64,000 nucleotides of DNA from Morinoia aosen (taxonomy: Eukaryota; Arthropoda; Malacostraca; Amphipoda; Talitridae): positions 34,944,139-35,008,138 of the forward strand of contig CM059563.1 in the NCBI GenBank assembly GCA_030386875.1. Direction: 5' to 3'. Below the pieces are notes generated by a model. That model made no database searches. It saw only the letters and a program-made list of their open reading frames with translations, and was not told the DNA's origin. A program made the position numbers and the translations under genes. This document shows, piece by piece, positions 18,101-62,342 of the stretch. Within the stretch, counting starts at the first letter, position 1. Each line of letters begins with the position of its first letter.

Positions 18101-19150
18101 TGGTGGTGTTACCTGTCAGCAGGGAGGAGCACTGCAGCGCAGAGAAGTACTGGTGGTGTTACCTGTCAGCAGTGAGGAGAACTGCAGTGCAGGGAAATAG
18201 TGGTGGTGTTACCTGTCAGCAGGGAGGAGAACTGCAGCGCAGGGAAGTAGTGGTGATGTTACCTGTCAGCAGGGAGGAGAACTGCAGCGCAGGGAAGTAG
18301 TGGTGATGTTACCTGTCAGCAGGGAGGAGAACTGCAGCGCAGGGAAGTAGTGGTGGTGTTATCTGTCAGCAGGGAGGAGAACTGCAGCGCAGAGAAGTAG
18401 TGGTGGTCTTACCTGTCAGCAAGGAGGAGAACTGCAGCGCAGAGAAGTAGTGGTGGTGTTACCTGTCAGCAGGGAGGAGAACTGCAGCGCAGGGAAGTAG
18501 TGGTGGTGTTACCTGTCAGCAGGGAGGAGAACTGCAGTGCAGGGAAGTAGTGGTGGTGTTACCTATCAGCAGGGAGGAAAACTGCAGCGCAAAGATATAG
18601 TGGTGGTGTTACCTGTCAGCAAGGAGGAGAACTGCAGCGCAGAGAAGTAGTGGAGGTGTTACCTGTCAGCACGGAGGAAAACTGCAGCGCAGGGAAGTAG
18701 TGGTGGTGTTACCTGTCAGCAGGGAGGAGAACTGCAGCGCAGGGAAGTAGTGGTGGTGTTACCTGTCAGCAGGGAGGAGAACTGCAGCGCAAAGAAATAG
18801 TGGTGGTGTTACCTGTCAGCAGGGAGGAGAACTGCAGCGCAGAGAAGTAGTGGAGGTGTTACCTGTCAGCACGGAGGAAAACTGCAGCGCAGAGAAATAG
18901 TGGTGGTGTTACCTGTCAGCAGGGAGGAAAACTGCAGCGCAGGGAAGTAGTGGTGGTGTTACCTGTCAGCAGGGAGGAGAACTGCAGCGCAGGGAAGTAG
19001 TGGTGGTGTTACCTGTCAGCAAGGAGGAGAACTGCAGTGCAGGGAAGTAGTGGTGGTGTTACCTGTTAGCAGGGAGGAGAACTGCAGTGCAAGGAAGTAG
19101 TGGTGGTGTTACCTGTCAGCAGGGAGGAGAACTGCAGCGCAGGGAAGTAG
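18101..19150 (-). repeat. 50-bp minisatellite made of a POMT2 exon end plus splice donor (21 copies)
   Basis: There are exactly 21 units of 50 bases with no length change. On the gene strand each unit holds the last coding bases of the exon at 19113-19250 (CTTCCCTGC...CTGCTGACAG) followed by the donor GTAACACCACCA. The exon itself supplies the first unit, so 20 more donor copies lie downstream of the real one. Units differ by scattered substitutions; one reads GCTAACAG. Because 50 is not a multiple of three, use of a later donor shifts the frame. Reading into the array adds [14 protein letters not shown] and then a stop. Confidence 0.95.
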
Positions 19151-19250
19151 TGGTGGTAATACAAGACGCGGTCCATAGTGAAGAAGGGCAGGTAGTGCAA
19201 CAGGTACGCCAGCAGCAACCATTTGCACCAGAACTCGATAGAGTCGTCAT
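19113..19250 (-). CDS. POMT2: POMT2 exon (C-terminal membrane helices)
   Basis: This exon encodes part of protein O-mannosyltransferase 2, the ER membrane enzyme that with POMT1 moves mannose from dolichol-phosphate-mannose to Ser/Thr of proteins such as dystroglycan. The 46 codons include [20 protein letters not shown] and QFSSLLTG, nearly matching the vertebrate POMT2 segment FPFFLMGRVLYFHHYFPA. The acceptor is TTATCTTTTCAG, the donor CAG|GTAACA. It starts and ends in phase 1 and joins the exon at 20133 in frame. Its donor end is the seed of the 50-bp minisatellite. The next exon is not found in the remaining 19 kb. Confidence 0.93.
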
Positions 19251-20132
19251 CTGAAAAGATAATCGCAATATGCAAAATGAGACCGAAGTACGAAGAGTCC
19301 AAAAAGCAATGCAGACAAAGGAGATCTTTTTCTTATTAGTCAAACTTTTTTGATCTAGATTTACTCCTTTTGTATTTGTAAGCTCTCCGTTTGGATTGTC
19401 TCAAAACGCCATTTGAAATCATTCAGCTCTCAGTTTACAGGGTTAATTGTCTGTATTAAAGTGCGACAGTGAACTGTAAAATTTTATCTAACTGAAGCTT
19501 TGAATTCAATCCAGTACTTGTTTCTCCCATGTGTAATTTTCTACTATTATTTTCCTTTTCGGGAAAAATTTTCGAACCAAACTCATACCAAAACGAAATT
19601 GAATGTAAAAATGATTTGGGAATTCCTTCATTTACATCTAAACCGTTCGTATACCACATTCTTATGTATGAGTGAACGGTTAAATGAAATTCATAAACAC
19701 CAAAGGGAAGTGCCCCCAAATTTTGCAGTCATCTCGATATATTCCGATAAATTGTTTTGCACAACCTGTAATAGCCCATCAGAAATGGAGTTCAATCCAA
19801 AAACTGCAAAAAAAATAGTTTTAGTTTAACATTGGCCAGACGCCAATTGCAGCAAAAGTAGTGCTTGAGCCCTCGTGTCTCAGACGACGTAAAATTAACG
19901 TCTAAGATCCGAGCTAGAAGTAGACCATATGTTTTACACTTTAATGTGAATGATTCGAGTAGGAGTGAGTAACAGCATCTTCATATATATAGGCATCTTT
20001 TTCAGTTTTTGAGAAGCAACCTGTGAGCCAGAAACCTATGATGAGAAATACGAATAACGAATGCCGTTCTTTACTGAGTAATTCACGTAGCAATGAAGAC
20101 CAGAGCTCCTTGATTCCATGCAGCTCACTGAC
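19251..20132 (-). other. POMT2 intron
   Basis: This is an 882-bp intron between phase-matched exons. It is A/T-rich. Short open frames around 19456-19829 show no recognisable domain. No mobile element seen. Confidence 0.6.
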
Positions 20133-20286
20133 CTCGATGGAAATGTTTGAGCCAGCCGCGCCTTCTGTGATATGCCGTCCTGATGAGCAAAAGCACGCTA
20201 ATCAGCACAGCTCCCGTACTCAGCCAGATCATCAGGGGGTTGCCGAGTAGCACTATGCGGTAGTTCACATCATACCATGGTTGTGA
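20133..20286 (-). CDS. POMT2: POMT2 exon (LLGNP segment)
   Basis: The 154 bases encode a luminal tail and a membrane helix: QPWYDVNYRIVLLGNPLMIW, then a hydrophobic stretch and basic RTAYHRRRGWLKHFHR at the membrane face. RVYLLGNP is one of the most conserved POMT signatures, here RIVLLGNP. The acceptor is GTATTTTTCAG, the donor CGAG|GTCAGT. It starts in phase 0 and ends in phase 1, fitting both neighbours. Confidence 0.93.
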
Positions 20287-21178: not shown

Positions 21179-21285
21179 CTTGTAGACAATGGGCCACATC
21201 CATGGCCGGTGGTAGAAAGGACTGAAGCGTTCCTTGGAGTCCGGCTTCAGATGGCCATTCGTCCACCGCATGAGTAAGTGAGTTT
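21179..21285 (-). CDS. POMT2: POMT2 exon (PWMWPI segment)
   Basis: The 35 codons encode THLLMRWTNGHLKPDSKERF and HRPWMWPIVYK, corresponding to the vertebrate segment with NSGLKPKD and SKPWHWPINY just before the LLGNP block. The acceptor GTCTCGTAG is followed by two bases that complete a split lysine codon from the previous exon. The donor AAG|GTGAAA lies at a phase-0 border. Confidence 0.9.
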
Positions 21286-22913
21286 CTACGAGACGTTCCC
21301 ATGCATTCAGGGGCTCCACAAAATTACTTGCTTTAATACCTGTTCAAAACGCACCATTTTATGTGCAAGCAATTATTATCAGAATTTTCTGAAAATTAAT
21401 TTTTCCGCAAGATTTAGTTTTCTGTATGCAAAATTGGTAGCCAGCGCATGCTAGGTTCCTTTGCGATGAATGATTTTATGTTGAAGGTAAATCAAATATA
21501 TATTTAACTGAATTGACGTACGGTCCCAGAGTGGTTCGCTAGAAAAGGTCAGAGTAACTTCAGGAGTACACGTTCCTCAGGGAGTAGGAGGACTCCCAGG
21601 AAGTTGCTTCCACGTAAAGTTGGAAAAATTGTGCCTTACTTCACTATCGTGCCCTGCAATGGTGACGCTGCTGGAACACCTGGCTCTACTTCACTCGAAT
21701 GCAGTAACTGTGGTCTGAGATGTCATCTTTTTTACGGATTGTTTAAAATTTACTTCCGCTGCTAGATAACTTTTCCCGCGGGAGTGCTGCTTTCCAGGAG
21801 AATTAATTCAGGTTTTACATTGAAGGTTAATGTTTTGAATGTACTCAACTTCAATTGCATTCGTGAAATTAATATTGATTGGAAAATTAATTTTATTCCA
21901 TTTTTAAACTCCAAGGCCCTTCGTACTAGAAAGCCCTCCCATTTTCCCGAAATTTAATTTTACTTATCAATGGTGGGCAAAGTTACTTGAGTCTCCCATG
22001 TGTAATGAATAAAAATGGGCGCTCAAGCTTTATTAATCCTCAATCAGTGGAGAGTTATCACGAAAAGTGGTTACTCGATCACATGCCAATGTACAAATTT
22101 AACAGATTTGCTGGCGGCAGGAAACTTATATAAATTCCTGCATAGCTGAGCCTCAAAGTAAATTGAAAGAACATCACCCGTAATTTTATTCCAACTTTTC
22201 AAACATATCATTTACCATTTGTATCACAATCAAGCTTTCGTTACTTTCCAGTGAAAAGTAGACACAAAATTCACCTGGAAGGGAAAGGTTAGTATATAGC
22301 AATTTTATTTTTTCTATAATCATTTGTACATTTAGGATACGGATAATTGTTTGTAAAATTTAGAAGGCAAAAACAATTCAAATCAAGAGACTTCAAAGTT
22401 TTACATCAAAAAAGGGGAAAGTGAATTCAAGCTTTAGTTTATCATACAAAATTGAGAATAAATAATTACATAGAGTTCTTCGAAATTGTCATGACTGTTA
22501 TTCCACGATATTGTATTTCTGCAAGCAAAATTCCAAGAATATTATGTGCATTACTCGTGTTGCAATGTGCGTGTGAGTACCCTGCAGTGTGTTCATGAGG
22601 ACTTCGCAGGAGATGAAGCACACCTCGATAGGATATAAGGGACGACTCAGAAGAATATTAAGCATTATTTGACAGGATATTTCGAGGGACTCATAACGGC
22701 AGTGAAATCGAACCGATGGTTTTCATACAAAAAAATTCCTTAGTCTTTTGAGGAGATGTAGTGCATCATTGGACAATCCCAAAGTGCCAGTGATGTGCGC
22801 TACAAAATGTTCAACGAGTAAAATGAACAATTTTTTCCGACAGTGGTTGAAATTGGGGATAGAAAAATGTGTTGAACAGGATAGATGTAGTGGAGACACT
22901 TAAAATAACTCAC
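21286..22913 (-). other. POMT2 intron
   Basis: A 1.6-kb intron. On the plus strand near 21553-21606 a short translation resembles the SGVPQG block of LINE reverse transcriptases, but no flanking motifs support it. Otherwise nothing is recognised. Confidence 0.5.
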
Positions 22914-23011
22914 TGAAGTTATCGTAGGGGTTGAAGTTGGTCTCGATGCGCCAGAGCGCCTCTGACGACTTTGTACTCTTGCTGCAAGTAATTTCTTCCT
23001 GACTCTCTGCC
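22914..23011 (-). CDS. POMT2: POMT2 exon (end of MIR region)
   Basis: The 98 bases encode AESQEEITCSKSTKSSEALW then RIETNFNPYDNF, matching the end of the POMT2 MIR region (QLEVTC, then WNVEDHINP in vertebrates). The acceptor TTCTGCACGCAG precedes a single G that completes the Trp codon begun by the previous exon. The donor TTCA|GTGAGT leaves phase 1, taken up by the next exon. Confidence 0.9.
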
Positions 23012-23422: not shown

Positions 23423-23606
23423 CACTGTGATCCCAGTTTCTCCAGGGACCACGTTAGAACACAGCCAAATTTCAGGTTGACCAGCGAAAATCGCGAGGCC
23501 AGAGGCAAAATCTCTGAGCCATTCGAGTGGAGCTGCAGCCGCCGCTCCCACCTCGCAGGGCTGGCGACCGGCACGACGACCTGCCAGATGTGCGACTGTG
23601 GAGGCT
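23423..23606 (-). CDS. POMT2: POMT2 exon (MIR domain)
   Basis: The exon encodes SHIWQVVVP, a variable stretch, then LPLASRFSLVNLKFGCVLTW and LEKLGSQW. This is a MIR motif like the vertebrate block with FWRIEV, RFIHLVTGCVLGSSG and LPKWGW. MIR domains form a beta-trefoil facing the ER lumen. The donor is CAGTG|GTGAGC. Two acceptors are possible: TTGTGGCAG before 23606, which fits the candidate exon at 28138-28195, or CCTCCACAG before 23595, which would join directly to the exon at 32772. Both keep the frame. Confidence 0.88.
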
Positions 23607-28137: not shown

Positions 28138-28195
28138 CAGGCTGGTGACTTGTCAGCAGCGGGTCGACCGCAGGGTGCTCCAGTGGTAGCAGTGG
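28138..28195 (-). CDS. POMT2: Probable POMT2 exon (58 bp, variable loop)
   Basis: A G/C-rich island in A/T-rich intron has a good acceptor (TTGTTTGTCTCACGCAG) and donor (CCTG|GTAGGT). It reads PLLPLEHPAVDPLLTSHQP without stops. It begins in phase 0 after the exon at 32772 and ends in phase 1, exactly what the GGCAG acceptor of the exon at 23423 needs. The encoded loop between two MIR motifs is not conserved in other species, so homology cannot confirm it. Confidence 0.5.
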
Positions 28196-32745: not shown

Positions 32746-32771
32746 AGAAATGATAAGTACTCATGACTGAC

Positions 32772-32955
32772 GTAAGGCTCAGCGTAGACAAGCTTGTGCT
32801 TGTTCACCACGAATGCCCCCAATTCGGAGGCGGCGAGAGTGGAGTTGGTGAGCGGGTGGTAGAGGCGAACGAAGTCTCCCGCTCTGACGATCTCCGGGCC
32901 ATCGGAGTACAGCTGGCCCTTCGTGTCAGGGTCATCCAGAGGGTACAGGATGCGA
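32772..32955 (-). CDS. POMT2: POMT2 exon (MIR domain), source of the 45-bp satellite
   Basis: The 184 bases encode RILYPLDDPDTKGQLYSDGP then EIVRAGDFVRLYHPLTNSTL and AASELGAFVVNKHKLVYAEPY. This fits the POMT2 MIR block with FVRHGDIIRLEHKETSRNL. One leading T completes a Phe codon started by the exon at 57296, and the end is phase 0. The nearest acceptor is GTTACAG before 32955, the donor TAC|GTCAGT. Its first bases (RILYPLDDPD) and its acceptor are repeated about 380 times upstream, so the true acceptor must be chosen among many copies. Confidence 0.9.
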
Positions 32956-33722
32956 CTGTAACATAAGAGTTCAGGGTCAACTAGAGGGTACAGGATGCGA
33001 CTGTAACAAAAGACGTCAGTGTCATCCAGAGGGTACAGGATGCGACTGTAACATAAGACGTCAGGGTCATCCAGAGGGTACAGGATGCGACTGTAACATA
33101 AGAGTTCAGGGTCATCCAGAGGGTACAGGATACGACTGTAACATAAAACGTCAGGGTCATCCAGAGGGTACAGGATGCGACTGTAACATAAGAGTTCAGG
33201 GTCATCTAGAGGGTACAGGATGCGACTGTAACAAAAGACGTCAGTGTCATCCAGAGGGTACAGGATGCGACTGTAACATAAGACGTCAGGGTCATCCAGA
33301 GGGTACAGGATGCAACTGTAACATAAGACGTCATGGTCATCAAGAGGGTACAAGATGCGACTGTAACATTAGACGTCAGGGTCATCCAGAGGGTACAGTG
33401 TGCAACTGTAACATAAGACGTCAGGGTCATCCAGAGGGTACAGGATGCGACTTTAACATAAGACGTCAGGGTCATCCAGAGGGTACAGGATATGACTGCA
33501 CCATAAGACGTCTGGGTCATCCAGAGGGTACAGGATATGACCGTAACATAAGACGTCAGGGTCATCCAGAGGGTACAGGATACGACTGTAACATAAGACG
33601 TCAGGGTCACCCAGAGGGTACAGGATGCGACTGTAACATAAGACGTCAGTGTCATCCAGAGGGTACAGGATATGACTGCACCATAAGACGTCAGGGTCAT
33701 CCAGAGGGTACAGGATATGACC
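32956..33722 (-). repeat. 45-bp satellite, block 1 (about 17 copies, touching the exon)
   Basis: On the gene strand each 45-base unit reads exon start (CGCATCCTGTACCCTCTGGA), then TGACCCTGACGTCTTATG, then TTACAG|T. It therefore contains a branch-point-like CTGAC 18 bases before a usable-looking acceptor. Since 45 is a multiple of three, the exon frame stays open through about eleven units, up to a stop near 33453. Confidence 0.95.
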
Positions 33723-34463
33723 GGGAAAACCGATAAGTAAGTAAGTACGGCTCGACAGAACCGACAAGTAAGTAAGTACGGCTCAACAGAACCGATAAGT
33801 AAGTAAGTACGGCTCGACAGAACCGATAAGTAAGTAAGTACGGCTCAACAGAACAATTAAGTAAGTAAGTACGGCTCGACAGAACCGATAGGTAAGTAAG
33901 TACGGCTCGACAGAACCGATAAGTAAGTAAGTACGGCTCGACAGAACCGATAAGTAAGTAAGTACGGCTCGACAGAACCGATAAGTAAGTAAGTACGGCT
34001 CGACAGAACCGATAAGTAAGTGAGTACGGCTCGACAGAACCGATAAGTAAGTAAGTACGGCTTGACAGAACCACTAAGTAAGTAAGTACGGCTCGACAGA
34101 ACCGATAAGTAAGTAAGTACGGCTCGACAGAACCGATAAGTAAGTAAGTACAGCTCGACAGAACTGATAAGTAAGTAAGTACGGCTCGACAGAACCGATA
34201 AGTAAGTAAGTAAGTACGGCTCGACAGAACCGATAAGTAGGTAAGTACGGCTCGACAGAACCGATAAGTTAGTAAGTACGGCTCGACAGAACCGATAAGT
34301 AAGTAAGTACGGCTCGACAGAACCGTTAAGTAAGTAAGTACGGCTCGACAGAACCGATAAGTAAGTAAGTACGGCTCGACAGAACCGATAAGTAAGTAAG
34401 TACGGCTCGACAGAACCGACAAGTAAGTAATTACGGCTCGACAGAACCGATAAGCAAGTAATT
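33723..34463 (+). repeat. 31-bp array, copy A (about 24 units)
   Basis: Units consist of CGGCTCGACAGAACCGATAA followed by GTAAGTAAGTA. Length varies by four bases through the number of GTAA steps. The plus strand (antisense to POMT2) is full of GTAAGT strings. It is identical in layout to copy B at 38473. Confidence 0.95.
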
Positions 34464-34842
34464 AATGGAAGAGGCGGCTAAAAAGCCTAGTAATTAGTAA
34501 TACCGCTGTGAAATGGCTAGTTTAAACAAAATAAACATGAAACACGCACATTCACACAAACCAAATCAGGAGTACGGTCAAAGAAAAGGACCAAGATTGC
34601 GAGAAGGTTGGAATATGCACAGGCGATGTGCAGCACTCGGTAGATTCACTTTACACCGTTAAGTAACAGAGGACGAGTAGCGAGTCCTGTAGGGCGTCGC
34701 GTAGTAGTAACAAATGTAATGCCTCTTAAATGAATATAAAAAGGTCTCACCGACATTGCTTCCTCCTCCGCCCCCGGTCAGCTGAAAGCCTTTAAAGTGC
34801 AAACTGACAAGTACCTGAGAGGCGCACCCGGAAATTCTCAAC
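34464..34842. repeat. 379-bp spacer, copy 1 of 3
   Basis: Non-tandem sequence between the 31-bp and 45-bp arrays, starting around TTAATGGAAGAGGCGGCT and ending CGGAAATTCTCAACA. Almost the same sequence occurs at 39214-39592 and 46212-46590, always in the order 31-bp array, spacer, 45-bp array. No gene or domain recognised. Confidence 0.9.
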
Positions 34843-37800
34843 ACATCCAGAGGGTACAGGATACGACTGTAACATAAGACGTCAGGGTTATCCAGAGGGT
34901 ACAGGATGCGACTGTAACACAAGACGTCAGGGTCATCCAGAGGGTACAGGATGCAACTGTAACATAAGACGTCAGGGTCATCCAGAGGGTACAGGATGCG
35001 ACTGTAACATAAGACGTCAGGATCATTCGGAGGGTACAGGATGCGACTGTAACATAAGACGTCAGGGTCATCCAGAGGGTACAGGATGCGACTGTAACAT
35101 AAGACGTCAGTGTCATCCAGAGGGTACAGGATGCGACTGTAACATAAGACGTCAGGGTCATCCAGAGGGTACAGGATACGACTGTAACATAAGACGTCAG
35201 GGTCATCCAGAGGGTACAGGATACGACTGTAACATAAGACGTCAGGGTCATCCAGAGGGTACAGGATGCGACTGTAACATAAGACGTCAAGGTCATCCAG
35301 AGGGTACAGGATGCGACTGTAACATAATACGTCAGGGTCATCCAGAGGGTACAGGATGCGACTGTAACATAAGACGTCAGGGTCATCCAGAGGGTACAGG
35401 ATGCGACTGTAACATAAGACTTCAAGGTCACCCAGAGGGTACAGGATACGACTGTAACATAAGACGTCAGGGTCATCCAGAGGGTACAGGATACGACTGT
35501 TACATAAAACGTCAGGGTCATCCAGAGGGTACAGGATACGACTGTAACTTAAGACGTCAAGGTCATCCAGAGGGTACAGGATACGATTGTAATATAAGAC
35601 GTCAGGGTCATCCAGAGGGTACAAGATGCGACTGTAACATAAGATGTCAGGGTCATCCAGAGGGTACAGGATGCGACTGTAACATAAGACGTCGGGGTCA
35701 TCCAGAGGGTACAGGATACGACTGTAACATAAGACGTCAGGGTCATCCAGAGGGTACAGGATGCGACTGTAACATAAGACGTCAAGGTCATCCAGAGGGT
35801 ACAGGATGCGACTGTAACATAAGACGTCAAGGTCATCAAGAGGGTACAGGATGCGACTGTAACATAAGAGGTCAAAGTCATCCAGAGGGTACAGGATGCG
35901 ACTGTAACATAAGACGTCAGGGTCATCCAGAGGGTACAGCTAGGATGCGACTGTAACATAAGACGTCAGTGTCATCCAGAGGGTACAGGATGCGACTGTA
36001 ACATAAGACGTCAGGGTCATCCAGAGGGTACAGGATACGACTGTAACATAAGACGTCAGGGTCATCCAGAGGGTACAGGATACGACTGTAACATAAGACG
36101 TCAGGGTCATCCAGAGGGTACAGGATGCGACTGTAACATAAGACGTCAAGGTCATCCAGAGGGTACAGGATGCGACTGTAACATAATACGTCAGGGTCAT
36201 CCAGAGGGTACAGGATGCGACTGTAACATAAGACGTCAGGGTCATGCAGAGGGTACAGGATACGACTGTAACATAAGACGTCAAGGTCATCCAGAGGGTA
36301 CAGGATACGACTGTAATATAAGACGTCAGGGTCATCCAGAGGGTACAGGATGCGAGTGCAACATAAGACGTCAGTGTCATCCAGAGGGTTCTCGATGCGA
36401 CTGTAACATAAGACGTCAAGGTCATCCAGAGGGTACAGGATGCGACTGTAACATAAGACGTCAGGGTCATCCAGAGGGTACAGGATGCAACTGTAACATA
36501 AGACGTCAAGGTCATCCAGAGGGTACAGGATGCGACTGTAACATAAGACGTCAGGGTCATCCAGAGGGTACAGGATGCGACTGTAACATAAGGCGTCAAG
36601 GTCATCCAGAGGGTACAGGATGCGACTGTAACATAAGACGTCAGGGTCATCCAGAGGGTACAGGATACGACTGTAACATAAGACGTCAGGGTCATCCAGA
36701 GGGCACAGGATACGACCGTAACATAAGACGTCAGGGTCATCCAGAGGGTACAGGATACGACTGTAACATAAGACGTCAGGATCATCCAGAGGGTACAGGA
36801 TGCGACTGTAACACAAGACGTCAGTGTCATCCAGAGGGTACAGGATGCGACTGTAACATAAGACGTCAGGGTCATCCAGAGGGTACAGGATGCGACTGTA
36901 ACATAAGACGTCAGGGTCATTCAGAGGGTACAGGATGCGACTGTAACATAAGACGTCAGGGTCATCCAGAGGGTACAGGATACGACTGTAACATAAGACG
37001 TCAGGGTCATCCAGAGGGTACAGGATGCGACTGTAACATAAGACGTCAAGGTCATCCAGAGGGTACAGGATGCGACTGTAACATAAGACGTCAAGGTCAT
37101 CCAGAGGGTACAGGATGCGACTGTAACATAAGACGTCAAGGTCATCCACAGGGTACAGGATGCGACTGTAACATAAGACGTCAAGGTCATCCAGAGGGTA
37201 CAGGATGCGACTGAAACATAAGACGTCAGGGTCATCAAGAGAGTACAGGATGCGACTGTAACATAAGACGTCAAGGTCATCCAGAGGGTACAGGATACGA
37301 CTGTAGCATAAGACGTCAGGGTCATCCAGAAGGTACAAGATGCGACTGTAACATAAGACGTCAGGGTCATCCAGAGGGTACAGGATGCGACTGTAACAAA
37401 AGAGTTCAGGGTCATCCAGAGGGTACAGGATACGACTGTAACATAAGACGTCAGGGTCATCCAGAGGGTACAGGATGCGACTGTAACATAAGAGTTCAGG
37501 GTCATCTAGAGGGTACAAGATGCGACTGTAACAGAAGACGTCAGTGTCATCCAGAGGGTACAGGATGCGTCTGTAACATAAGACGTCAGGGTCATCCAGA
37601 GGGTACAGGATGCAACTGTAACATAAGACGTCAGGGTCATCCAGAGGGTACAAGATGCGACTGTAACATTAGACGTCAGGGTCATCCAGAGGGTACAGTG
37701 TGCAACTGTAACATAAGACGTCAGGGTCATCCAGAGGATACAGGATGCGACTGTAACATAAGACGTCAGGGTCATCCAGAGGGTACAGGATATGACTGCA

Positions 37801-38471: not shown

Positions 38472-38472
38472 C

Positions 38473-39213: not shown

Positions 39214-39592
39214 AATGGAAGAGGCGGCTAAAAAGCCTAGTAATTAGTAATACCGCTGTGAAATGGCTAGTTTAAACAAAATAAACATGAAACACGCACA
39301 TTCACACAAACCAAATCAGGAGTACGGTCAAAGAAAAGGACCAAGATTGCGAGAAGGTTGGAATATGCACAGGCGATGTGCAGCACTCGGTAGATTCACT
39401 TTACACCGTTAAGTAACAGAGGACGAGTAGCGAGTCCTGTAGGGCGTCGCGTAGTAGTAACAAATGTAATGCCTCTTAAATGAATATAAAAAGGTCTCAC
39501 CGACATTGCTTCCTCCTCCGCCCCCGGTCAGCTGAAAGCCTTTAAAGTGCAAACTGACAAGTACCTGAGAGGCGCACCCGGAAATTCTCAAC
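39214..39592. repeat. 379-bp spacer, copy 2 of 3
   Basis: Copy of 34464-34842, part of the 4750-bp duplication. Confidence 0.9.
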
Positions 39593-44983: not shown

Positions 44984-46211
44984 AGTAAGTACGGCTCAAC
45001 AGAACCGGTAAGTAGGTAAGTACGGCTCGACAGAACCGGTAAGTAGGTAAGTACGGCTCGACAGAACCGGTAAGCAAGTAAGTACGGCTCAACAAAACCG
45101 GTAAGTAAGTAAGTACGGCTCGACAGAACCGGTAAGTAAGTACGGCTCGACAGAACCGGTAAGTAAGTAAGTACGGCTCAACAGAACCGGTAAGTAAGTA
45201 AGTACGGCTCAACAGAACCGGTAAGTAAGTAAGTACGGGTCGACAGAACCGGTAAGTAAGTACGGCTCGACAGAACCGGTAAGTAAGTAAGTACGGCTCG
45301 ACAGAACCGGTAAGTGAGTAAGTACGGCTCGACAGAACCGGTAAGTAAGTACGGCTCAACAGAACCGGTAAGTAAGTAAGTACGGCTCGACAGAACCGGT
45401 AAGTAAGTACGGCTCGACAGAACCGGTAAGTAAGTATGTACGGCTCAACAGAACCGGTAAGTAAGTAAGTACGGCTCAACAGAACCGGTAAGTAAGTAAG
45501 TACGGCTCAACAGAACCGGTAAGTAAGTAAGTACGGCTCGACAGAACCGATAAGTAAGTAGGTACGGCTCGACAGAACCGATAAGTAAGTAAGTACAGCT
45601 CGACAGAACTAATAGGTAAGTAAGTACGGCTCGACAGAACCGATAAGTAAGTAAGTACGGCTCGACAGAACCGATAAGTAAGTAAGTACGGCTCGACAGA
45701 ACCGATAAGTAAGTACGGCTCGACAGAACCGATAAGTAAGTAAGTACGGCTCGACAGAACCGATAAGTAAGTAAGTACGGCTCGACAGAACCGATAAGTA
45801 AGTAAGTACGGCTCGACAGAACCGATAAGTAAGTAAGTACGGCTCGACAGAACCGATAAGTAAGTAAGTACGGCTCGACAGAACCGATAAGTAAGTAAGT
45901 ACGGCTCGACAGAACCGATAAGTAAGTAAGTACGGCTCAACAGAACCGATAAGTAAGTAAGTACGGCTCGACAGAACCGATAAGTAAGTAAGTACGGCTC
46001 AACAGAACCATTAAGTAAGTAAGTACGGCTCGACAGAACCGAGAAGTAAGTAAGTACGGCTCGACAGAACCGATAAGTAAGTAAGTACGGCTCGACAGAA
46101 CCGATAAGTAAGTAAGTACGGCTCGACAGAACCGATAAGTAAGTAAGTACGGCTCGACAGAACCGATAAGTAAGTAATTACGGCTCGACAGAACCGATAA
46201 GCAAGTAATTA
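44984..46211 (+). repeat. 31-bp array, copy C (about 40 units, two subfamilies)
   Basis: The first half (to about 45540) uses units with ACCGGTAAGTAAGT, the second half units with ACCGATAAGT. Several units are one or two GTAA steps shorter. The second half resembles copies A and B, so the first half is a separate expansion. Confidence 0.95.
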
Positions 46212-46590
46212 ATGGAAGGGGTGGCTAAAAAGCCTAGTAATTAGTAATACCGCTCTGAAATGGCTAGTTTAAACAAAATAAACATGAAACACGCACATTC
46301 ACACAAACCAAATCAGGAGTACGGTCAAAGAAAAGGACCAAGATTGCGAGAAGGTTGGAATATGCACAGGCGATGTGCAGCACTCGGTAGATTCACTTTA
46401 CACCGTTAAGTAACAGAGGACGAGTAGCGAGTCCTGTAGGGCGTCGCGTAGTAGTAACAAATGTAATGCCTCTTAAATGAATATAAAAAGGTCTCACCAA
46501 CATTGCTTCCTCCTCCGCCCCCGGTCAGCTGAAAGCCTATAAAGTGCAAACTGACAAGTACCTGAGAGGCGCACCCGGAAATTCTCAACA
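46212..46590. repeat. 379-bp spacer, copy 3 of 3
   Basis: Same spacer with a few differences from copies 1 and 2 (AAGGGGTGGC for AAGAGGCGGC, CTCTGAAAT for CTGTGAAAT), so it is the older-diverged copy. Confidence 0.9.
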
Positions 46591-49500
46591 CATCCAGAGG
46601 GTACAGGATACGACTGTAACATAAGACGTCAGGGTTATCCAGAGGGTACAGGATGCGACTGTAACACAAGACGTCAGGGTCATCCAGAGGGTACAGGATG
46701 CAACTGTAACACAAGACGTCAGGGTCATCCAGAGGGTACAGGATACGACTGTAACATAAGACGTCAGGGTTATCCAGAGGGTACAGGATGCGACTGTAAC
46801 ACAAGACGTCAGGGTCATCCAGAGGGTACAGGATGCAACTGTAACATAAGACGTCAGGGTCATCCAGAGGGTACAGGATGCGACTGTAACATAAGACGTC
46901 AGGATCATTCAGAGGGTACAGGATGCGACTGTAACATAAGACGTCAGGGTCATCCAGAGGGTACAGGATGCGACTGTAACATAAGACGTCAGTGTCATCC
47001 AGAGGGTACAGGATGCGACTGTAACATAAGACGTCAGGGTCATCCAGAGGGTACAGGATACGACTGTAACATAAGACGTCAGGGTCATCCAGAGGGTACA
47101 GGATACGACTGTAACATAAGACGTCAGGGTCATCCAGAGGATACAGGATGCGACTGTAACATAAGACGTCAAGGTCATCCAGAGGGTACAGGATGCGACT
47201 GTAACATAATACGTCAGGGGCATCCAGAGGGTACAGGATGCGACTGTAACATAAGACGTCAGGGTCATCCAGAGGGTACAGGATGCGACTGTAACATAAG
47301 ACTTCAGGGTCATCCAGAGGGTACAGGATACGACTGTAACATAAGACGTCAGGGTCATCTAGAGGGTACAGGATACGACTGTTACATAAAACGTCAGGGT
47401 CATCCAGAGGGTACAGGGTACGACTATAACTTAAGACGTCAAGGTCATCCAGAGGGTACAGGATACGATTGTAATATAAGACGTCAGGGTCATCCAGAGG
47501 GTACAAGATGCGACTGTACCATAAGATGTCAGGGTCATCCAGAGGGTACAGGATGCGACTGTAACATAAGACGTCGGGGTCATCCAGAGAGTACAGGATA
47601 CGACTGTAACATAAGACGTCAGGGTCATCCAGAGGGTACAGGATGCGACTGTAACATAAGACGTCAAGGTCATCCAGAGGGTACAGGATGCGACTGTAAC
47701 ATAAGACGTAAAGGTCATCAAGAGGGTACAGGATGCGACTGTAACATAAGACGTCAAAGTCATCCAGAGGGTACAGGATGCGACTGTAACATAAGACGTC
47801 AGGGTCATCCAGAGGGTACAGCTAGGATGCGACTGTAACATAAGACGTCAGTGTCATCCAGAGGGTACATGATGCGACTGTAACATAAGACGTCAGGGTC
47901 ATCCAGAGGGTACAGGATACGACTGTAACATAAGACGTCAGGGTCATCCAGAGGGTACAGGATACGACTGTAACATAAGACGTCAGGGTCATCCAGAGGG
48001 TACAGGATGCGACTGTAACATAAGACGTCAAGGTCATCCAGAGGGTACAGGATGCGACTGTAACATAATACGTCAGGGTCATCCAGAGGGTACAGGATGC
48101 GACTGTAACATAAGACGTCAGGGTCATGCAGAGGGTACAGGATACGACTGTAACATAAGACGTCAAGGTCATCCAGAGGGTACAGGATACGACTGTAATA
48201 TAAGACGTCAGGGTCATCCAGAGGGTACAGGATGCGAGTGCAACATAAGACGTCAGTGTCATCCAGAGGGTTCTCGATGCGACTGTAACATAAGACGTCA
48301 AGGTCATCCAGAGGGTACAGGATACGACTGTAACATAAGACGGCAGGGTCATCCAGAGGGTACAAGATGCGACTGTAACATAAGACGTCAGGGTCATCCA
48401 GAGAGTACAGGATGCGACTGTAACATAAGACGTCAGGGTCATCCAGAGGGTACAGGATACGACTGTATCATAAGACGTCAGGGTCATCCAGAGGGTACAG
48501 GATGCGACTGTAACATAAAACGTCAAGGTCATCCAGAGGGTACAGGATGCAACTGTAACATAAGACGTAAGGTCATCCAGAGGGTACAGGATGCGACTGT
48601 AACAAAGGACGTCAAGGTCATCCAGAGGGTACAGGATGCGACTGTAACATAAGACGTCAGGGTCATCCAGAGGGTACAGGATGCAACTGTAACATAAGAC
48701 GTCAAGGTCATCCAGAGGGTAAAGGATGCGACTGTAACATAAGACGTCAGGGTCATCCAGAGGGTACAGGATGCGACTGTGACATAAGGCGTCAAGGTCA
48801 TCCAGAGGGTACAGGATACGACTGTAACATAAGACGTCAGGGTCATCCAGAGGGTACAAGATGCGACTGTAACATAAGACGTCAGGGTCATCCAGAGGGT
48901 ACAGGATGCGACTGTAACATAAGACGTCAGGGTCATCCAGAGGGTACAGGATACGACTGTAACATAAGATGTCAGGGTCATCCAGAGGGTACAGGATGCG
49001 ACTGTAACATAAGACGTCAAGGTCATCCAGAGGGTACAGGATGCGACTGTAACATAATACGTCAAGGTCATCCAGAGGGTACAGGATACGACTGTAACAT
49101 AAGACGTCAAGGTCATCCAGAGGGTACAGGATACGACTGTAACATAAGACGTCAGGGTCATCCAGAGGGTACAGGATGCGACTGTAACATAAGACGTCAG
49201 GATCATTCAGAGGGTACAGGATGCGACTGTAACATAAGACGTCAGGGTCATCCAGAGGGTACAGGATGCGACTGTAACATAAGACGTCAGTGTCATCCAG
49301 AGGGTACAGGATGCGACTGTAACATAAGACGTCAGGGTCATCCAGAAGGTACAGGATACGACTGTAACATAAGACGTCAGGGTCATCCAGAGGGTACAGG
49401 ATACGACTGTAACATAAGACGTCAGGGTCATCCAGAGGATACAGGATGCGACTGTAACATAAGACGTCAAGGTCATCCAGAGGGTACAGGATGCGACTGT

Positions 49501-52500
49501 AACATAATACGTCAGGGGCATCCAGAGGGTACAGGATGCGACTGTAACATAAGACGTCAGGGTCATCCAGAGGGTACAGGATGCGACTGTAACATAAGAC
49601 TTCAGGGTCATCCAGAGGGTACAGGATACGACTGTAACATAAGACGTCAGGGTCATCTAGAGGGTACAGGATACGAATGTTACATAAAACGTCAGGGTCA
49701 TCCAGAGGGTACAGGATACGACTATAACTTAAGACGTCAAGGTCATCCAGAGGGTACAGGATACGATTGTAATATAAGACGTCAGGGTCATCCAGAGGGT
49801 ACAAGATGCGACTGTACCATAAGATGTCAGGGTCATCCAGAGGGTACAGGATGCGACTGTAACATAAGACGTCGGGGTCGTCCAGAGAGTACAGAATACG
49901 ACTGTAACATAAGACGTCAGGGTCATCCAGAGGGTACAGGATGCGACTGTAACATAAGACGTCAAGGTCATCCAGAGGGTACAGGATGCGACTGTAACAT
50001 AAGACGTAAAGGTCATCAAGAGGGTACAGGATGCGACTGTAACATAAGACGTCAAAGTCATCCAGAGGGTACAGGATGCGACTGTAACATAAGACGTCAG
50101 GGTCATCCAGAGGGTACAGCTAGGATGCGACTGTAACATAAGACGTCAGTGTCATCCAGAGGGTACATGATGCGACTGTAACATAAGACGTCAGGGTCAT
50201 CCAGAGGGTACAGGATACGACTGTAACATAAGACGTCAGGGTCATCCAGAGGGTACAGGATACGACTGTAACATAAGACGTCAGGGTCATCCAGAGGGTA
50301 CAGGATGCGACTGTAACATAAGACGTCAAGGTCATCCAGAGGGTACAGGATGCGACTGTAACATAATACGTCAGGGTCATCCAGAGGGTACAGGATGCGA
50401 CTGTAACATAAGACGTCAGGGTCATGCAGAGGGTACAGGATACGACTGTAACATAAGACGTCAAGGTCATCCAGAGGGTACAGGATACGACTGTAATATA
50501 AGACGTCAGGGTCATCCAGAGGGTACAGGATGCGAGTGCAACATAAGACGTCAGTGTCATCCAGAGGGTTCTCGATGCGACTGTAACATAAGACGTCAAG
50601 GTCATCCAGAGGGTACAGGATACGACTGTAACATAAGACGGCAGGGTCATCCAGAGGGTACAAGATGCGACTGTAACATAAGACGTCAGGGTCATCCAGA
50701 GAGTACAGGATGCGACTGTAACATAAGACGTCAGGGTCATCCAGAGGGTACAGGATACGACTGTATCATAAGACGTCAGGGTCATCCAGAGGGTACAGGA
50801 TGCGACTGTAACATAAGACGTCAAGGTCATCCAGAGGGTACAGGATGCAACTGTAACATAAGACGTAAGGTCATCCAGAGGGTACAGGATGCGACTGTAA
50901 CATAAGACGTCAAGGTCATCCAGAGGGTACAGGATGCGACTGTAACATAAGACGTCAGGGTCATCCAGAGGGTACAGGATGCAACTGTAACATAAGACGT
51001 CAAGGTCATCCAGAGGGTACAGGATGCGACTGTAACATAAGACGTCAGGGTCATCCAGAGGGTACAGGATGCGACTGTGACATAAGGCGTCAAGGTCATC
51101 CAGAGGGTACAGGATACGACTGTAACATAAGACGTCAGGGTCATCCAGAGGGTACAAGATGCGACTGTAACATAAGACGTCAGGGTCATCCAGAGGGTAC
51201 AGGATGCGACTGTAACATAAGACGTCAGGGTCATCCAGAGGGTACAGGATACGACTGTAACATAAGATGTCAGGGTCATCCAGAGGGTACAGGATGCGAC
51301 TGTAACATAAGACGTCAAGGTCATCCAGAGGGTACAGGATGCGACTGTAACATAATACGTCAAGGTCATCCAGAGGGTACAGGATACGACTGTAACATAA
51401 GACGTCAAGGTCATCCAGAGGGTACAGGATACGACTGTAACATAAGACGTCAGGGTCATCCAGAGAGTACAGGATACGACTGTAACCTAAGACGTCAAGG
51501 TCATCCAGAGGGTACAGGATGCGTCTGTAACATAAGACGTCAAGGTCATCCAGAGGGTACAGGCTGCGACTGTAACATAAGACGTCAAGGTCATCCAGAG
51601 GGTTCAGGATGCGACTGTAACATAAGACGTCAGGGTCATCCAGAGGGTACAGCTAGGATGCGACTGTAACATAAGACGTCAGTGTCATCCAGAGGGTACA
51701 GGATGCGACTGTAACATAAGACGTCAGGGTCATCCAGAGGGTACAGGATACGACTGTAACATAAGACGTCAGGGTCATCCAGAGGGTACAGGATACGACT
51801 GTAACATAAGACGTCAGGGTCATCCAGAGGGTACAGGATGCGACTGTAACATAAGACGTCAAGGTCATCCAGAGGGTACAGGATGCGACTGTAACATAAT
51901 ACGTCAGGGTCATCCAGAGGGTACAGGATGCGACTGTAACATAAGACGTCAGGGTCATGCAGAGGGTACAGGATACGACTGTAACATAAGACGTCAAGGT
52001 CATCCAGAGGGTACAGGATACGACTGTAATATAAGACGTCAGGGTCATCCAGAGGGTACAGGATGCGAGTGCAACATAAGACGTCAGTGTCATCCAGAGG
52101 GTTCTCGATGCGACTGTAACATAAGACGTCAAGGTCATCCAGAGGGTACAGGATACGACTGTAACATAAGACGGCAGGGTCATCCAGAGGGTACAAAATG
52201 CGACTGTAACATAAGACGTCAGGGTCATCCAGAGGGTACAGGATGCGACTGTAACAAAAGACGTCAGGGTCATCCAGAGGGTACAGTATATGACTGTATC
52301 ATAAGACGTCAGGGTCATCCAGAGGGTACAGGATGCGACTGTAACATAAGACGTCAAGGTCATCCAGAGGGTACAGGATGCAACTGTAACATTAGACGTC
52401 AAGGTCATCCAGAGGGTACAGGATGCGACTGTAACATAAGACGTCAAGGTCATCCAGAGGGTACAGGATGCGACTGTAACATAAGACGTCAGGGTCATCC

Positions 52501-54514
52501 AGAGGGTACAGGATGCAACTGTAACATAAGACGTCAAGGTCATCCAGAGGGTACAGGATGCGACTGTAACATAAGACGTCAGGGTCATCCAGAGGGTACA
52601 GGATGCGACTGTAACATAAGGCGTCAAGGTCATCCAGAGGGTACAGGATACGACTGTAACATAAGACGTCAGGGTCATCCAGAGGGTACAAGATGCGACT
52701 GTAACATAAGACGTCAGGGTCATCCAGAGGGTACAGGATGCGACTGTAACATAAGACGTCAGGGTCATCCAGAGGGTACAGGATACGACTGTAACATGAG
52801 ATGTCAGGGTCATCCAGAGGGTACAGGATGCGACTGTAACATAAGACGTCAAGGTCATCCAGAGGGTACAGGATGCGACTGTAACATAATACGTCAAGGT
52901 CATCCAGAGGGTACAGGATACGACTGTAACATAAGACGTCAAGGTCATCCAGAGAGTACAGGATACGACTGTAACCTAAGACGTCAAGGTCATCCAGAGG
53001 GTACAGGATGCGTCTGTAACATAAGACGTCAAGGTCATCCAGAGGGTACAGGATGCGACTGTAACATAAGACGTCAAGGTCATCCAGAGGGTACAGGATG
53101 CGACTGTAACATAAGACGTCAAGGTCATCCAGAGGGTACAGGATGCGACTCTAACATAAGACGTCAGGGTCATCTAGAGGGTACAGGATGCGACTGTAAC
53201 ATAAGACGTCAAGGTCATCCAGAGGGTACAGGATGCGACTGTAACATAAGACTTCAAGGTCATCCAGAGGGTACAGGATACGACTGTAACATATGACGTC
53301 AAGGTCATCCAGAAAGTACAGGATGCGACTGTAACATAAGACGTCAAGGTCATCCAGATGGTACAGGATACGACTGTAACATAAGACGTCAAGGTCGTCC
53401 AGAGAGTACAGGATACGACTGTAACATAAGACGTCATGGTCATCCAGAGGGTACAGGATACGACTGTAACATAAGACGTCAGGGTCATCCAGAGGGTACA
53501 GGATACGACTGAAACATAAGACGTCAGGGTCATCCACAGGGTACAGGATACGACTGTACCATAAGACGTCAGGGTCATCCAGAGGGTACAGGATACGACT
53601 GTACCATAAGACGTCAGGGTCATCCAGAGGGTACAGGATACGACTGTACCATAAGATGTCAGGGTCATCCAGAGGGTACAGGATACGACTGTAACATAAG
53701 ACGTCAGGGTCATCCAGATGGTACAGGGTACGACTGTACCATAAGACGTCAGGGTCATCCAGAGGGTACAGGATACGACTGTAACATAAGACGTCAGGGT
53801 CATCCAGAGGGTACAGGATACGACTGTAACATAAGACGTCAGGGTCATCCAGAGGGTACAGGATACGACTGTAACATAAGACGTCAGAGTCATCCAGAGG
53901 CTACAGGATACGACTGTAACATGAGACTTCAAGGTCATCCAGAGGGTGCAGGATACGACTGTAACATAAGACGTCAGGGTCATCCAGAGGGTACAGGATA
54001 CGACTGTACCATAAGACGTCAGGGTCATCCAGAGGGTACAGGATACGACTGTAACATAAGACGTCAGGGTCATCCAGAGGGTACAGGATACGACTGTACC
54101 ATAAGACGTCAGGGTCATCCAGAGGGTACAGGATACGACTGTAACATAAGACGTCAGGGTCATCCAGAGGGTACAGGATACGACTGTAACATAAGACTTC
54201 AGGGTCATCCAGAGGGTACAGGATACGACTGTAACATTAGACGTCAGGGTCATCCAGAGGGTACAAGATACGACTGTAACATAAGACGTCAGGGTCATCC
54301 AGAGGGTACAGGATACGACTGTACCATAAGACGTCAGGGTCATCCAGAGGGTACAGGATACGACTGTAACATAAGACGTCAGGGTCATCCAGAGGGTACA
54401 GGATACGACTGTACCATAAGACGTCAGGGTCATCCAAAGGGTACAGGATACGACTATAACATAAGACGTCAGGGTCATCCAGAGGGTACAGGATACGACT
54501 GTAACATAAAACGT
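46591..54514 (-). repeat. 45-bp satellite, block 4 (about 176 copies)
   Basis: Longest block. The CTA-marked unit occurs near 47820, 50118 and 51651, showing internal duplications of 2298 and 1533 bases (51 and 34 units plus the three marker bases). Towards the right end (from about 53540) units alternate between GTAACATAAG and GTACCATAAG forms, a different local subfamily. The block ends where the LINE region begins. Confidence 0.95.
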
Positions 54515-57129: not shown

Positions 57130-57310
57130 CTCACCAGTGCGCTAAAGAAGGACTCACAATAAGTTGTTGCGGTCTTTAGCATAAACTTGAAGTTTCTGAA
57201 CATACAACAGTACTCCCCACGCGCAAGAAGGACTCACAATAAGTCGTTGTATTCCTTGCATACAACGGTACTCCCCACGCGCAAGAAGGACTCACAATAA
57301 GTTGTTGTGG
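57130..57310 (-). repeat. Three tandem copies of a POMT2 exon end and donor
   Basis: The donor region of the exon at 57296 (gene strand CAACAACTTATT|GTGAGTCCTTC) is present three times: at the exon, near 57230, and near 57150. The farther copies carry the exon-side bases, GACTTATT and CAACTTATT, and the donor GTGAGTCCTT, joined by CGCGTGGGGAGTAC sequence. Copy spacing is about 65-85 bases with some divergence, so this is a small, older version of the junction arrays seen elsewhere in the gene. Confidence 0.85.
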
Positions 57311-57446
57311 TCCTTAGCCCTGTACCCCGTGACCTGCTGCAGGGCAGGCCGCAGACGGGACGGAGGGTAGCTGAGGTTGTGGGAGTGCAGGTAGGGCCCC
57401 GCCAGGTGGTCATTACGCAGCGAGATCAGGCCTCCGTACACCACCT
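57296..57446 (-). CDS. POMT2: POMT2 exon (first MIR motif)
   Basis: The 151 bases encode VVYGGLISLRNDHLAGPYLH, SHNLSYP and LQQVTGYRAKDHNN, matching the vertebrate block LAYGSVITVKNL, GYLHSHRHLYP and QQQVTTYLHKDYNN. This is the start of the luminal MIR region. The acceptor GCAACGGCAG is followed by AG, which completes a codon begun by the exon at 59080. The donor TATT|GTGAGT leaves phase 2, completed by T of the exon at 32955. The intron that follows is over 24 kb because of the satellite. Confidence 0.95.
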
Positions 57447-59079: not shown

Positions 59080-59174
59080 GTGGGGATAGAGTTGCGTTGT
59101 GCAGAATGTTTCCTTGCAAAGTCATCTGGTACTCAGGGCTAAGAGCCGCTTCTTCGCTCCCGGCTAAGCTAAAC
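59080..59174 (-). CDS. POMT2: POMT2 exon (luminal loop before MIR)
   Basis: The 95 bases encode SLAGSEEAALSPEYQMTLQG then NILHNATLSP. This corresponds to the vertebrate segment [22 protein letters not shown] that precedes the first MIR motif. The acceptor is TTTTCCTTTTAG, the donor CCAC|GTGAGA. The phase 2 entry and phase 1 exit both fit the neighbours. NAT is a potential N-glycosylation site, conserved in position with NAS. Confidence 0.93.
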
Positions 59175-60249: not shown

Positions 60250-60356
60250 GCTCGGTACAGGCGCGCGTCGTGAATAAAGAAGCAAGTGAGGTACACGACT
60301 GCCGGCAGCAGCACAAGGCACACGACTCGGGCTATCAGATGCATCAGCAGTTCCCG
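60250..60356 (-). CDS. POMT2: POMT2 exon (membrane helix)
   Basis: The 107 bases encode RELLMHLIARVVCLVLLPAV then VYLTCFFIHDARLYRA, a membrane helix ending in the lumen, matching the vertebrate [20 protein letters not shown]. The acceptor GTTCGCAG opens phase 0. The donor GAGC|GTGAGT closes in phase 2. Confidence 0.93.
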
Positions 60357-60579: not shown

Positions 60580-60721
60580 CGCCGTAGATCGGGCGAAGAA
60601 ACCCCAGATTTCAGAAGCGGTGAAGAGTCCCACCACCGCCACCGTGAACAGGCCCACGAACTTCACACTCACAACACATCCCAGGGACAAGCCCGTCGCT
60701 GCTAGGCTGGCCCACCAGCTC
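60580..60721 (-). CDS. POMT2: POMT2 exon (VKFVGLF helix)
   Basis: The 142 bases encode SWWASLAATGLSLGCVVSVK then FVGLFTVAVVGLFTASEIWG, membrane helices with the highly conserved VKFVGLF. Vertebrate POMT2 has [20 protein letters not shown]. The acceptor TATTTTTCAAG gives one G that completes a Ser codon from the exon at 62234. The donor GGCG|GTGAGA is phase 0. Confidence 0.95.
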
Positions 60722-61595
60722 CTTGAAAAATATCCAGCCCTGGAAGTAAAGTTTCAAACTTCTATGGTGACATTATTTTCTGTTTCCAGTCCACTCAGCC
60801 AACAACCTGTTTGTTTCATTGCTGACTTTCGCTAACATTTGTGTCTGCATTACGTAGAAAGGCTGCTCGTTCTATGAAGAACTCATGACTCAAAATACCT
60901 GAGGTGAATATGAAATCGATAGAATCGGTCGAATGTGAACACATTGACATTGAATTATTTTACGCGTAAATTATAATTGTTAGGCAAACAACAATAGTTT
61001 TTCCATTTCTGAGCTGAGATTGAGCTCGCCAATATACTTGGCCCCTTGGCACCTATATGACACGTCGGTAACCTCTCCATGAGTAACAACATTCGGCATC
61101 GTGAGGTAGGCGATCCATTAAGGTTCATTCTGGTAAGTAACCTCGTTCGAACTGTTATTCTGAAATATCAGTAGAGCGAACAATTGGGGAATCTAATTCA
61201 TGTTTCAATGATGGTTTTGGTCCCAAACGTATTGCAGAGCTGACGACAAAAAATTCAAATGTATCGAATTCAAAAATCTATTATGAATTGAACTTCAGTT
61301 AGAACATAAATACAACAATTTAGGCATAGATTAGGGTTACTTGTTTACCGAATTAATAGCTTCCTACAGTGCTTCCAAGATTATCCAGCCTGTTTACTTG
61401 TTTAAACGAATGAATGAAGCACACGAGAGAAGAAATGTTAAAAATCCTACACAACACCGTACTAATTATTCTTGCACGCCTAACTAGATGATGTGACATG
61501 CGCAAATTAACATACAGAACAATTAGCACATTCCTACACACTTATCAATACAAGCCACTCTCACATGTTACCACAATCCACGCTTGCGTTTCAAC
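60722..61595 (-). other. POMT2 intron segment
   Basis: A/T-rich intron between the 20-bp array and the exon at 60580; nothing recognised. Confidence 0.5.
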
Positions 61596-62233
61596 ACATT
61601 CCACGCTCACGCGTCAACACAAGCCACGTTCACACAACACAAGCTACGCTCACATATCAACACAAGCCCCGTTCACACAACACATTCCACGCTCACGCGT
61701 CAACACAAGCCACGCTCACATATCAACACAAGCCACGTTCACACAACACAAGCTACGCTCACATATCAACACAAGCCACGTTCACACAACACATTCCACG
61801 CTCACGCGTCAACACAAGCCACGCTCACACAACACAAGCCATGCTCACGCATCAACACAAGCCACGCTCACACAACACAAGCCACGCTCACACAACACAA
61901 GCCACGCTCATACAACACAAGCCACGCTCACACAACACAAGCCACGCTCACACAATACAAGCCACGCTCACACAACACAAGCCACGCTCACACAACACAA
62001 GCCCCGCTCATACAACACAAGCCACGCTCACACAACACAAGCCACGTTCACACAACACAAGCCACGCTCACACAACGCAAGCCACGCTCACACAATACAA
62101 GCCACGCTCACACAGCACAAGCCACGCTCACACAACACAAGCCATGCTCACACAACACAAGCCACGCTCATACAACCCAAGCCACACTCACACAACACAA
62201 GCACCACGCACACACAACACAAGCCACGCTCAC
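61596..62233 (-). repeat. 20-bp minisatellite starting at a POMT2 donor (about 32 copies)
   Basis: On the gene strand the intron begins GTGAGCGTGGCTTGTGTTGT directly at the donor of the exon at 62234, and this 20-base unit repeats for about 640 bases. Units nearest the exon are simple. The far third (to about 61850) mixes in longer composite units with ATTGTGTTGATATGTGAGC-like and ACGCGTGAGC-like forms. Almost every unit keeps GTGAGC or GTGAAC, so many donor-like strings follow the real one. Confidence 0.9.
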
Positions 62234-62342
62234 GAGCACGAGGCGCGGTGCAGGAAGGTCAGGGAGAGCCAGGCGGCCACCACGAAGAAGAGCAGCGGCG
62301 CGTCGAGGAGGATGAATTTGGTTAGAGTCAAGGAGCCAACGT
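62234..62342 (-). CDS. POMT2: POMT2 exon (ILLD helix)
   Basis: The 109 bases encode VGSLTLTKFILLDAPLLFFV then VAAWLSLTFLHRASC, the conserved luminal-loop-to-helix segment (LSQYILLDPILMFF in relatives). The acceptor GTGACATTGCAG is followed by two bases completing a codon. The donor GCTC|GTGAGC ends in phase 2. It is the most 5' exon visible; the catalytic first loop and the initiator Met lie to the right of the window. Confidence 0.92.

Follow-up and report, generated by a model that had tools for sequence, protein, structure and literature searches.

The question raised by this locus is why four splice junctions of a single gene should each lie at a tandem repeat, and how such a gene could tolerate them. 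The gene, on the minus strand of a 64,000-base stretch of the genome of the amphipod Morinoia aosen (contig CM059563.1, here C8; the whole stretch is called the window), encodes protein O-mannosyl-transferase 2 (POMT2). We find that its arrays are probably minisatellites of the type termed mirages, that is, tandem repeats across exon-intron borders, which arose by duplication largely blind to splice junctions, were tolerated by splicing, and were then amplified and spread.

Tandem arrays at four POMT2 junctions

POMT2 exons were located by tblastn with proteins retrieved from relatives, and their splice borders were set from the sequence, with exon X7 identified through a phase gap. The resulting 12 GT-AG exons, with 24 junctions, join into a single stop-free reading of 532 amino acids. 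Of eight proteins compared, the closest to this model was P0002 of Trinorchestia longiramus, a talitrid amphipod (74.6% identity over 492 aligned positions), followed by score by Eriocheir sinensis P0003 (46%) and Hyalella azteca P0015 (57%). A preliminary description of the window had placed three donors (19113, 57296 and 62234) and one acceptor (32955) within tandem repeats, and these positions are the same in the exon model. Its copy numbers (21, 3, about 32 and about 380) also hold, as a recount gave 21 at X12, 3 at X5, 33 at X1 and 375 at X6. Together the four arrays occupy 23,385 of the 64,000 bases (Table 1), and Tandem Repeats Finder (TRF) reported them at 18097-19157 (50 bp), 32925-33716 and 34844-54514 (45 bp), 57201-57315 (58 bp) and 61615-62233 (20 bp).

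The other 20 junctions were free of arrays. When 11 exons (22 junctions) were compared with the window by blastn, only matches of 12-17 bp with E values of at least 0.05 were found beyond the four arrays, and the junctions of X7 had no copies in the matched 40-mer test described below. Scanning positions 1-17000 of the window with the 50-bp, 45-bp and 20-bp units gave 0 matches each, and an Rfam search at gathering thresholds gave no match.

At all four junctions, several head-to-tail copies reach into the intron while the exon itself is single and intact. The preliminary description had the unit containing the junction in every case, which is so at X5, X6 and X12, where units hold exon sequence and splice site, but not at X1, where the unit is intron-only: the base before GT is T in the array copies and C in the exon. 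GT was retained in 29 of the 33 X1 copies and GTGAGC in 21. The X5 unit consists of the final exon bases followed by GTGAGT. In the X12 unit, AG|GT is present in 20 of 21 copies, as in dual-specific splice-site arrays, and the exon sequence GTATTACCACCACTAC matches the intron sequence GTAACACCACCACTAC at 14 of 16 bases. Since any two of the four units share a run of at most 8 bp, an independent origin of the arrays is supported, as had been proposed.

The X6 acceptor array is by far the largest, and intron 5, at 24,340 bases, consists mostly of it. Its unit combines 14 intron nucleotides ending in CAG with 31 exon nucleotides; the junction reads AG|TC, and thus lacks the AG|GT of a dual-specific site. 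AG was retained in 356 of the 375 copies, and 76 copies were identical to the true exon copy. At the joint, inspection by eye shows only AC in common between the exon and the intron flank at the far side. A genome search with the 45-bp unit returned 170 matches; among the matches listed, all lay inside the window's array. The copies sit in four blocks (173, 104, 80 and 18), which three inserts separate. Every insert carries 31-bp repeats together with about 380 bp of further sequence, and the longest, which has about 650 bp extra, is bounded by TG...CA ends and a target duplication and may be akin to a solo long terminal repeat. Both shorter inserts belong to a repeated stretch of 4428 bp, exact throughout and offset by 4750, which is either a block duplication or partly an assembly fault.

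Despite the arrays, normal splicing of the mRNA is likely, to judge from the open 532-residue reading. We sought signs of selection on the splice dinucleotides and on the encoded peptide of the X6 array copies and saw none: conservation was 97.5% for AG, 96.9% for the intron part and 95.6% for the exon part, and the distinct variants comprised 14 synonymous and 37 nonsynonymous changes of 23 and 67 possible. Of the two ideas offered in the preliminary description, tolerance by splicing is the better one, as the reading is open over 12 exons and variation among the array copies bears no mark of selection; a shared local cause at the border is unsupported by the comparisons below. Exact repeated words of seven residues occurred in 3 of the first 20 retrieved proteins (P0002, P0006 and P0009), none judged to be tandem at an array site, with their places unmapped to junctions.

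Several other features lie in the window. Among the tblastn matches listed, there were no POMT2 exons past X12; downstream of that exon, at 358-14155 on the minus strand, is a Polinton/Maverick-like element with packaging-ATPase-like (Pox_A32), double-jelly-roll capsid and rve integrase frames and a 61-bp repeat present in inverted orientation near each end. A Tc1/Sleeping Beauty-like transposase fragment, below Pfam cut-offs, is found at 14844-15440. Intron 5 contains a LINE-like (long interspersed nuclear element) reverse transcriptase open frame (RVT_1) at 54929-56029, just upstream of the X6 array, and intron 6 contains about 90 copies of a 23-bp unit at 29395-31460, away from junctions, with long open stretches in minus-strand frames. 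This 23-bp array was rejected as a junction array, as its unit had only two overlapping weak matches elsewhere, at 29033-29053, neither of them at an exon.

Table 1. POMT2 exons, junction arrays and inserts (window positions)
Feature	Position	Strand	Remarks
Exon X1	62234..62342	-	tblastn to Trinorchestia P0002, AG/GT borders; last exon base 62234
X1 donor array	61564..62233 (TRF 61615-62233)	-	20-bp unit GTGAGCGTGGCTTGTGTTGT, 33 copies, from first intron base
Exon X2	60580..60739	-	array absent
Exon X3	60250..60356	-	array absent
Exon X4	59080..59174	-	array absent
Exon X5	57296..57446	-	last exon base 57296
X5 donor repeat	57145..57315	-	3 copies, spacing 58 and ~79 bp; TRF 57201-57315
X6 acceptor array	32925..54514	-	45-bp unit, 375 copies over 21.6 kb, exon's own copy counted
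Longest insert in 45-bp array	44327..46590		TG...CA ends, 4-bp target duplication CATC, 31-bp repeats
Shorter insert, copy 2	38474..39592		31-bp repeats and ~380 bp
Shorter insert, copy 1	33728..34842		31-bp repeats and ~380 bp
Exon X6	32772..32955	-	first exon base 32955
Exon X7	28138..28195	-	58 bp; array absent; restores phase X6-X8
Exon X8	23423..23606	-	array absent
Exon X9	22914..23011	-	array absent
Exon X10	21179..21339	-	array absent
Exon X11	20133..20286	-	array absent
Exon X12	19113..19250	-	last exon base 19113; final 96 nt 94-96% identical to paralogues A, B
X12 donor array	18097..19157	-	50-bp unit, 34 exon nt + 16 intron nt GTAACACCACCACTAC, 21 copies

The X12 array in POMT2 paralogues

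A search of the genome (1.99 Gb in 29 contigs) found the 50-bp array at five loci, all on the window's contig C8 and always at POMT2 exon X12. These are the window and two inverted copies each of paralogue A (like Trinorchestia P0009) and paralogue B (like P0016). In the stretches fetched, identity between the inverted copies is 98.95% across 33.2 kb and 97.81% across 43.5 kb. Scanning counted 21 copies of the 50-mer in the window, 11 and 9 in the A pair and 13 and 25 in the B pair (TRF values in the same order: 21.2, 11.0, 9.0, 13.9 and 25.8), so that in this one assembly copy number is unequal between the members of each inverted pair. The array has three different distal flanks across the three paralogue groups. 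At a larger scale, parts of 33.26-33.40 Mb and 35.07-35.18 Mb of the contig form a large inverted duplication that holds the two paralogues, flanks the window and is 98-99% identical where compared.

With one copy each of A and B compared, the last 96 bases of X12 were 93.8% identical between window and A, 95.8% between window and B and 97.9% between A and B, and third codon positions differed at only 2-5 of 32. The first 42 bases of the same exon, in contrast, were 50-69% identical, and exon X11 49-54%. As the end of X12 is 94-98% identical while X11 is at about 50%, gene conversion has probably copied the array together with its exon seed between old POMT2 paralogues. At the position of the array, Trinorchestia P0016 reads LLTGKFDSSYL, a peptide that does not resemble the array; if the P0016 gene model runs into the intron, this is a hint that the array may be younger than the paralogues.

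Each paralogue also has its own junction arrays, built from different units, and the earlier proposal of independent seeding gains from this as well as from the unrelated units within the window. In paralogue A (loci L027-L032 joined), one donor has 4.7 copies of a 35-bp unit (GTCAT|GTGAGT...), the donor of exon X0 has 2.1 copies of a 72-bp unit made of 57 exon and 15 intron bases, and an intron-only 20-bp array of 34 copies ends 6 bases before the X0 exon. In paralogue B, 4 copies of a 39-bp unit form an array whose start lies 5 bases inside the donor of one upstream exon. TRF repeats made up 3.7-8.2% of the four fetched paralogue stretches. One copy of paralogue B also has a 269-bp tandem repeat of 6.6 copies (L023 1004-2771; S3 11004-12771), a period that TRF does not list for the other copy (S2).

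Exon borders compared with random intron positions

The preliminary description ascribed the arrays to a shared local cause at the exon border and asked for repeats at borders to be compared with random positions. We used a matched test in which the 200 bases on the intron side of a junction were searched for a second copy of the 40-mer centred on it, with at least 29 of 40 bases matching, and in which control sites were random intron positions. The test covered the window, paralogue A (25 junctions) and paralogue B (12 junctions), with borders fixed by motif in the paralogues, and myosin-head exons (PF00063) as a sample of unrelated genes. Of 79 myosin matches the sample covered 52: the 12 best were taken with flanks of 1.5 kb, and the 40 that followed in the list with flanks of 160 bases. 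Its edges are the ends of profile matches rather than fixed splice sites, and its controls came from the 12 long loci. Window controls were drawn without the junction arrays (with the arrays kept, 804 of 1500 sites scored, and this set was unused).

Duplicated junctions numbered 3 of 24 in the window, 2 of 25 in A, 1 of 12 in B and 3 of 104 among the myosin match edges; the corresponding random intron sites scored in 155 of 1500, 55 of 1500, 43 of 1500 and 14 of 1200 cases. Pooled with the window controls included, junctions showed no excess (9/165 versus 267/5700, p=0.58), and no set alone was significant (p=0.15 to 0.73), the window being at the upper end against its own controls (p=0.73). 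Since the window was chosen for its odd look, its own rate of junction arrays is inflated; window junctions compared with myosin edges gave p=0.08, and POMT2 (4/59) compared with myosin (3/104) gave p=0.26. A special cause at junctions, or a strong preference for them, is not supported.

Among the myosin exons, 8 of 52 had a TRF repeat within 60 bases of the match edge, and inspection identified mirages at 3 of 52, two of them degenerate. The clear case (L073, contig C11) is a donor mirage of 42 bp in about 4 copies that include exon bases. The degenerate ones are a donor mirage seen by eye (L057, contig C2), which fell under the threshold of the matched test, and an acceptor mirage (L072, contig C11), which lay outside the eight TRF cases. 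L071 is counted as duplicated in the matched test, although on inspection its match edge is intronic; at L054, L062, L065, L074, L080 and L083, repeats lie within 60 bases of the edge with the exon not clearly copied.

Several results weigh against an origin blind to junctions, or against the figures and identities on which our interpretation draws. Of the TRF loci in 14001-64000, 4 of 10 end within one unit of a junction (P=0.004 under random placement); restricted to the gene span the figure is 4 of 7 (P=0.002), and when exons are spared and the largest array is kept in place it is 3 of 9 (P=0.019). With the window controls excluded, the pooled matched test gave 9/165 versus 112/4200 (p=0.047), and the control positions are not mutually independent. 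A weak preference for junctions is thus possible. Because an assembly error could underlie the exact repeat of 4428 bp, 375 is the count of X6 copies in this assembly only. A conserved peptide at the end of X12 explains part of the identity between paralogues there, third positions excepted.

The strongest rival reads these placement results as a sign that exon borders are true hot spots, at which a step in GC content, the splice-site sequence or a co-transcriptional structure starts tandem duplication. We consider it unlikely. GC over 80 nucleotides was higher at array junctions (0.56 versus 0.46, p=0.018), a measure that includes array DNA; exon-side GC (p=0.15) and hairpin energy (p=0.82), however, did not differ between array junctions and other junctions. 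The pooled excess also weakened when the shared X12 array was counted once, as independent events (7/163, p=0.21), and when L071 was removed (8/165 versus 112/4200, p=0.14), and it disappeared once the window controls were added. The proposed shared local cause thus finds no support in matched controls, hairpin energy or exon-side GC, and the excess over random positions, in window, A, B and myosin, turns on the choice of controls (p=0.047 or 0.58).

That the arrays are functional, each copy being a usable splice site that buffers or varies splicing, seems improbable. On this account the X12 copies, with AG|GT after a pyrimidine-rich tract, could serve as dual-specific or recursive sites, much as human UBC uses dual-specific arrays (PMC10809524), and the X6 copies, each of 15 codons, could add in-frame repeats. 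Indeed, the X6 exon frame is open through nine upstream copies and 364 of the 375 are stop-free, so a wrong choice of acceptor would insert 15-residue repeats without a frameshift. However, conservation of the splice dinucleotides barely exceeds that elsewhere in the unit, no selection is seen on the peptide, and the units of 50 bp and 20 bp would each introduce a frameshift. Collapse or expansion of repeats in assembly, to which the exact repeat within the X6 array could point, is the least probable account, given the 50-bp array at five loci with three distal flanks and differing copy numbers, copies among the 20 nearest the X6 exon that deviate from the unit at 9 and 10 of 45 bases, and junction arrays on other contigs.

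We therefore favour mirage-type minisatellites that splicing tolerates. A short tandem duplication first arose across an exon-intron border, as shown by the units at X5, X6 and X12, and unequal exchange would have added copies, a step partly visible in the homogenised copies, the multi-kilobase block repeated with its inserted element and the copy-number differences between recent duplicates. Selection would retain one intact exon at the array edge, where the spliceosome would pick the site belonging to the exon body; if the site beside the exon body is used, every extra copy would become intron. The matched controls suggest that the starting duplication was largely blind to exon borders, and junction arrays may come to notice for two reasons: splicing makes them tolerable, and DNA copied from an exon can be recognised within an intron. 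Judging from the identity levels, the X12 array and its exon seed would also have moved between old paralogues by gene conversion.

Mirages in other animals and the amphipod case

The preliminary description knew of no named class of such repeats, but this rare kind has been named (PMC3087553, PMC3902484) and has counterparts in human genes (PMC2630376, PMC2812944, PMC10809524). Mirages are described in amphioxus Adh3, the globins BflGb6 and BflGb9, PGBD5 and TnC as minisatellite-like duplications of 5' or 3' exon borders, with units of 10-160 bp, which are unstable in length, evolve in concert within an array and are reported to be harmless to mRNA splicing (PMC3087553, PMC3902484). The POMT2 arrays are likewise tandem minisatellites of exon borders. 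They differ in reaching 375 copies and 21.6 kb, whereas BflGb6 haplotypes have 3 and 6 units, and in the presence of several arrays per gene, one of them common to old paralogues.

Human CBS offers a parallel in its 31-bp variable number tandem repeat (VNTR), c.1444_1467+7(16_21), whose name implies 24 bases of exon and 7 of intron at a donor, in 16-21 copies, and in a second duplication, 844ins68, at the intron 7/exon 8 border, which is spliced out of the mRNA (PMC2630376). A donor unit of exon and intron bases and two border duplications in one gene resemble POMT2, although the VNTR is polymorphic in humans and has far fewer copies than X6. Dual-specific splice-site arrays in UBC and VCX3A are tandem units with AG|GT, proposed to render repeat expansion tolerable (PMC10809524); the X12 unit carries the same motif, but UBC units are coding and their sites were observed in use. 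In human segmental duplicates, internal tandem repeats located at exon-intron boundaries alter gene structure and are proposed to form introns (PMC2812944). Their border location is as in POMT2, although they concern recent human paralogues, with no array of X6 size in the parts consulted.

No arthropod case was recognised among the literature matches listed, which is weak evidence of absence, as these were mostly titles and abstracts with subscription papers largely missing. Such repeats go unmentioned in the portions available of a Daphnia repeat survey, which do not use the word 'splice' (PMC3152781), and of the Parhyale genome paper (PMC5111886). Earthworm metallothionein intron minisatellites were considered and set aside as a parallel, as the available part of the report describes no repeats across junctions (PMC12783039).

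Mirages have been described from lancelets, as a possibly general cephalochordate feature, and from scattered human cases. Here a crustacean genome has them at two unrelated gene families, with an acceptor array of 375 copies and an array common to old paralogues. We tentatively propose, as an idea only slightly less plausible than its opposite, that exon borders in this amphipod lineage are a genome-wide and continuing source of minisatellites, with arrays at a few percent of junctions, introns enlarged by up to 20 kb, and neighbouring exon sequence dragged into gene conversion between old paralogues. Mirages in arthropods would make their cause and their tolerance by splicing testable, and would tie them to intron growth and gene conversion; if the proposal is true, splice-junction repeats shape intron size and protein-coding paralogues alike.

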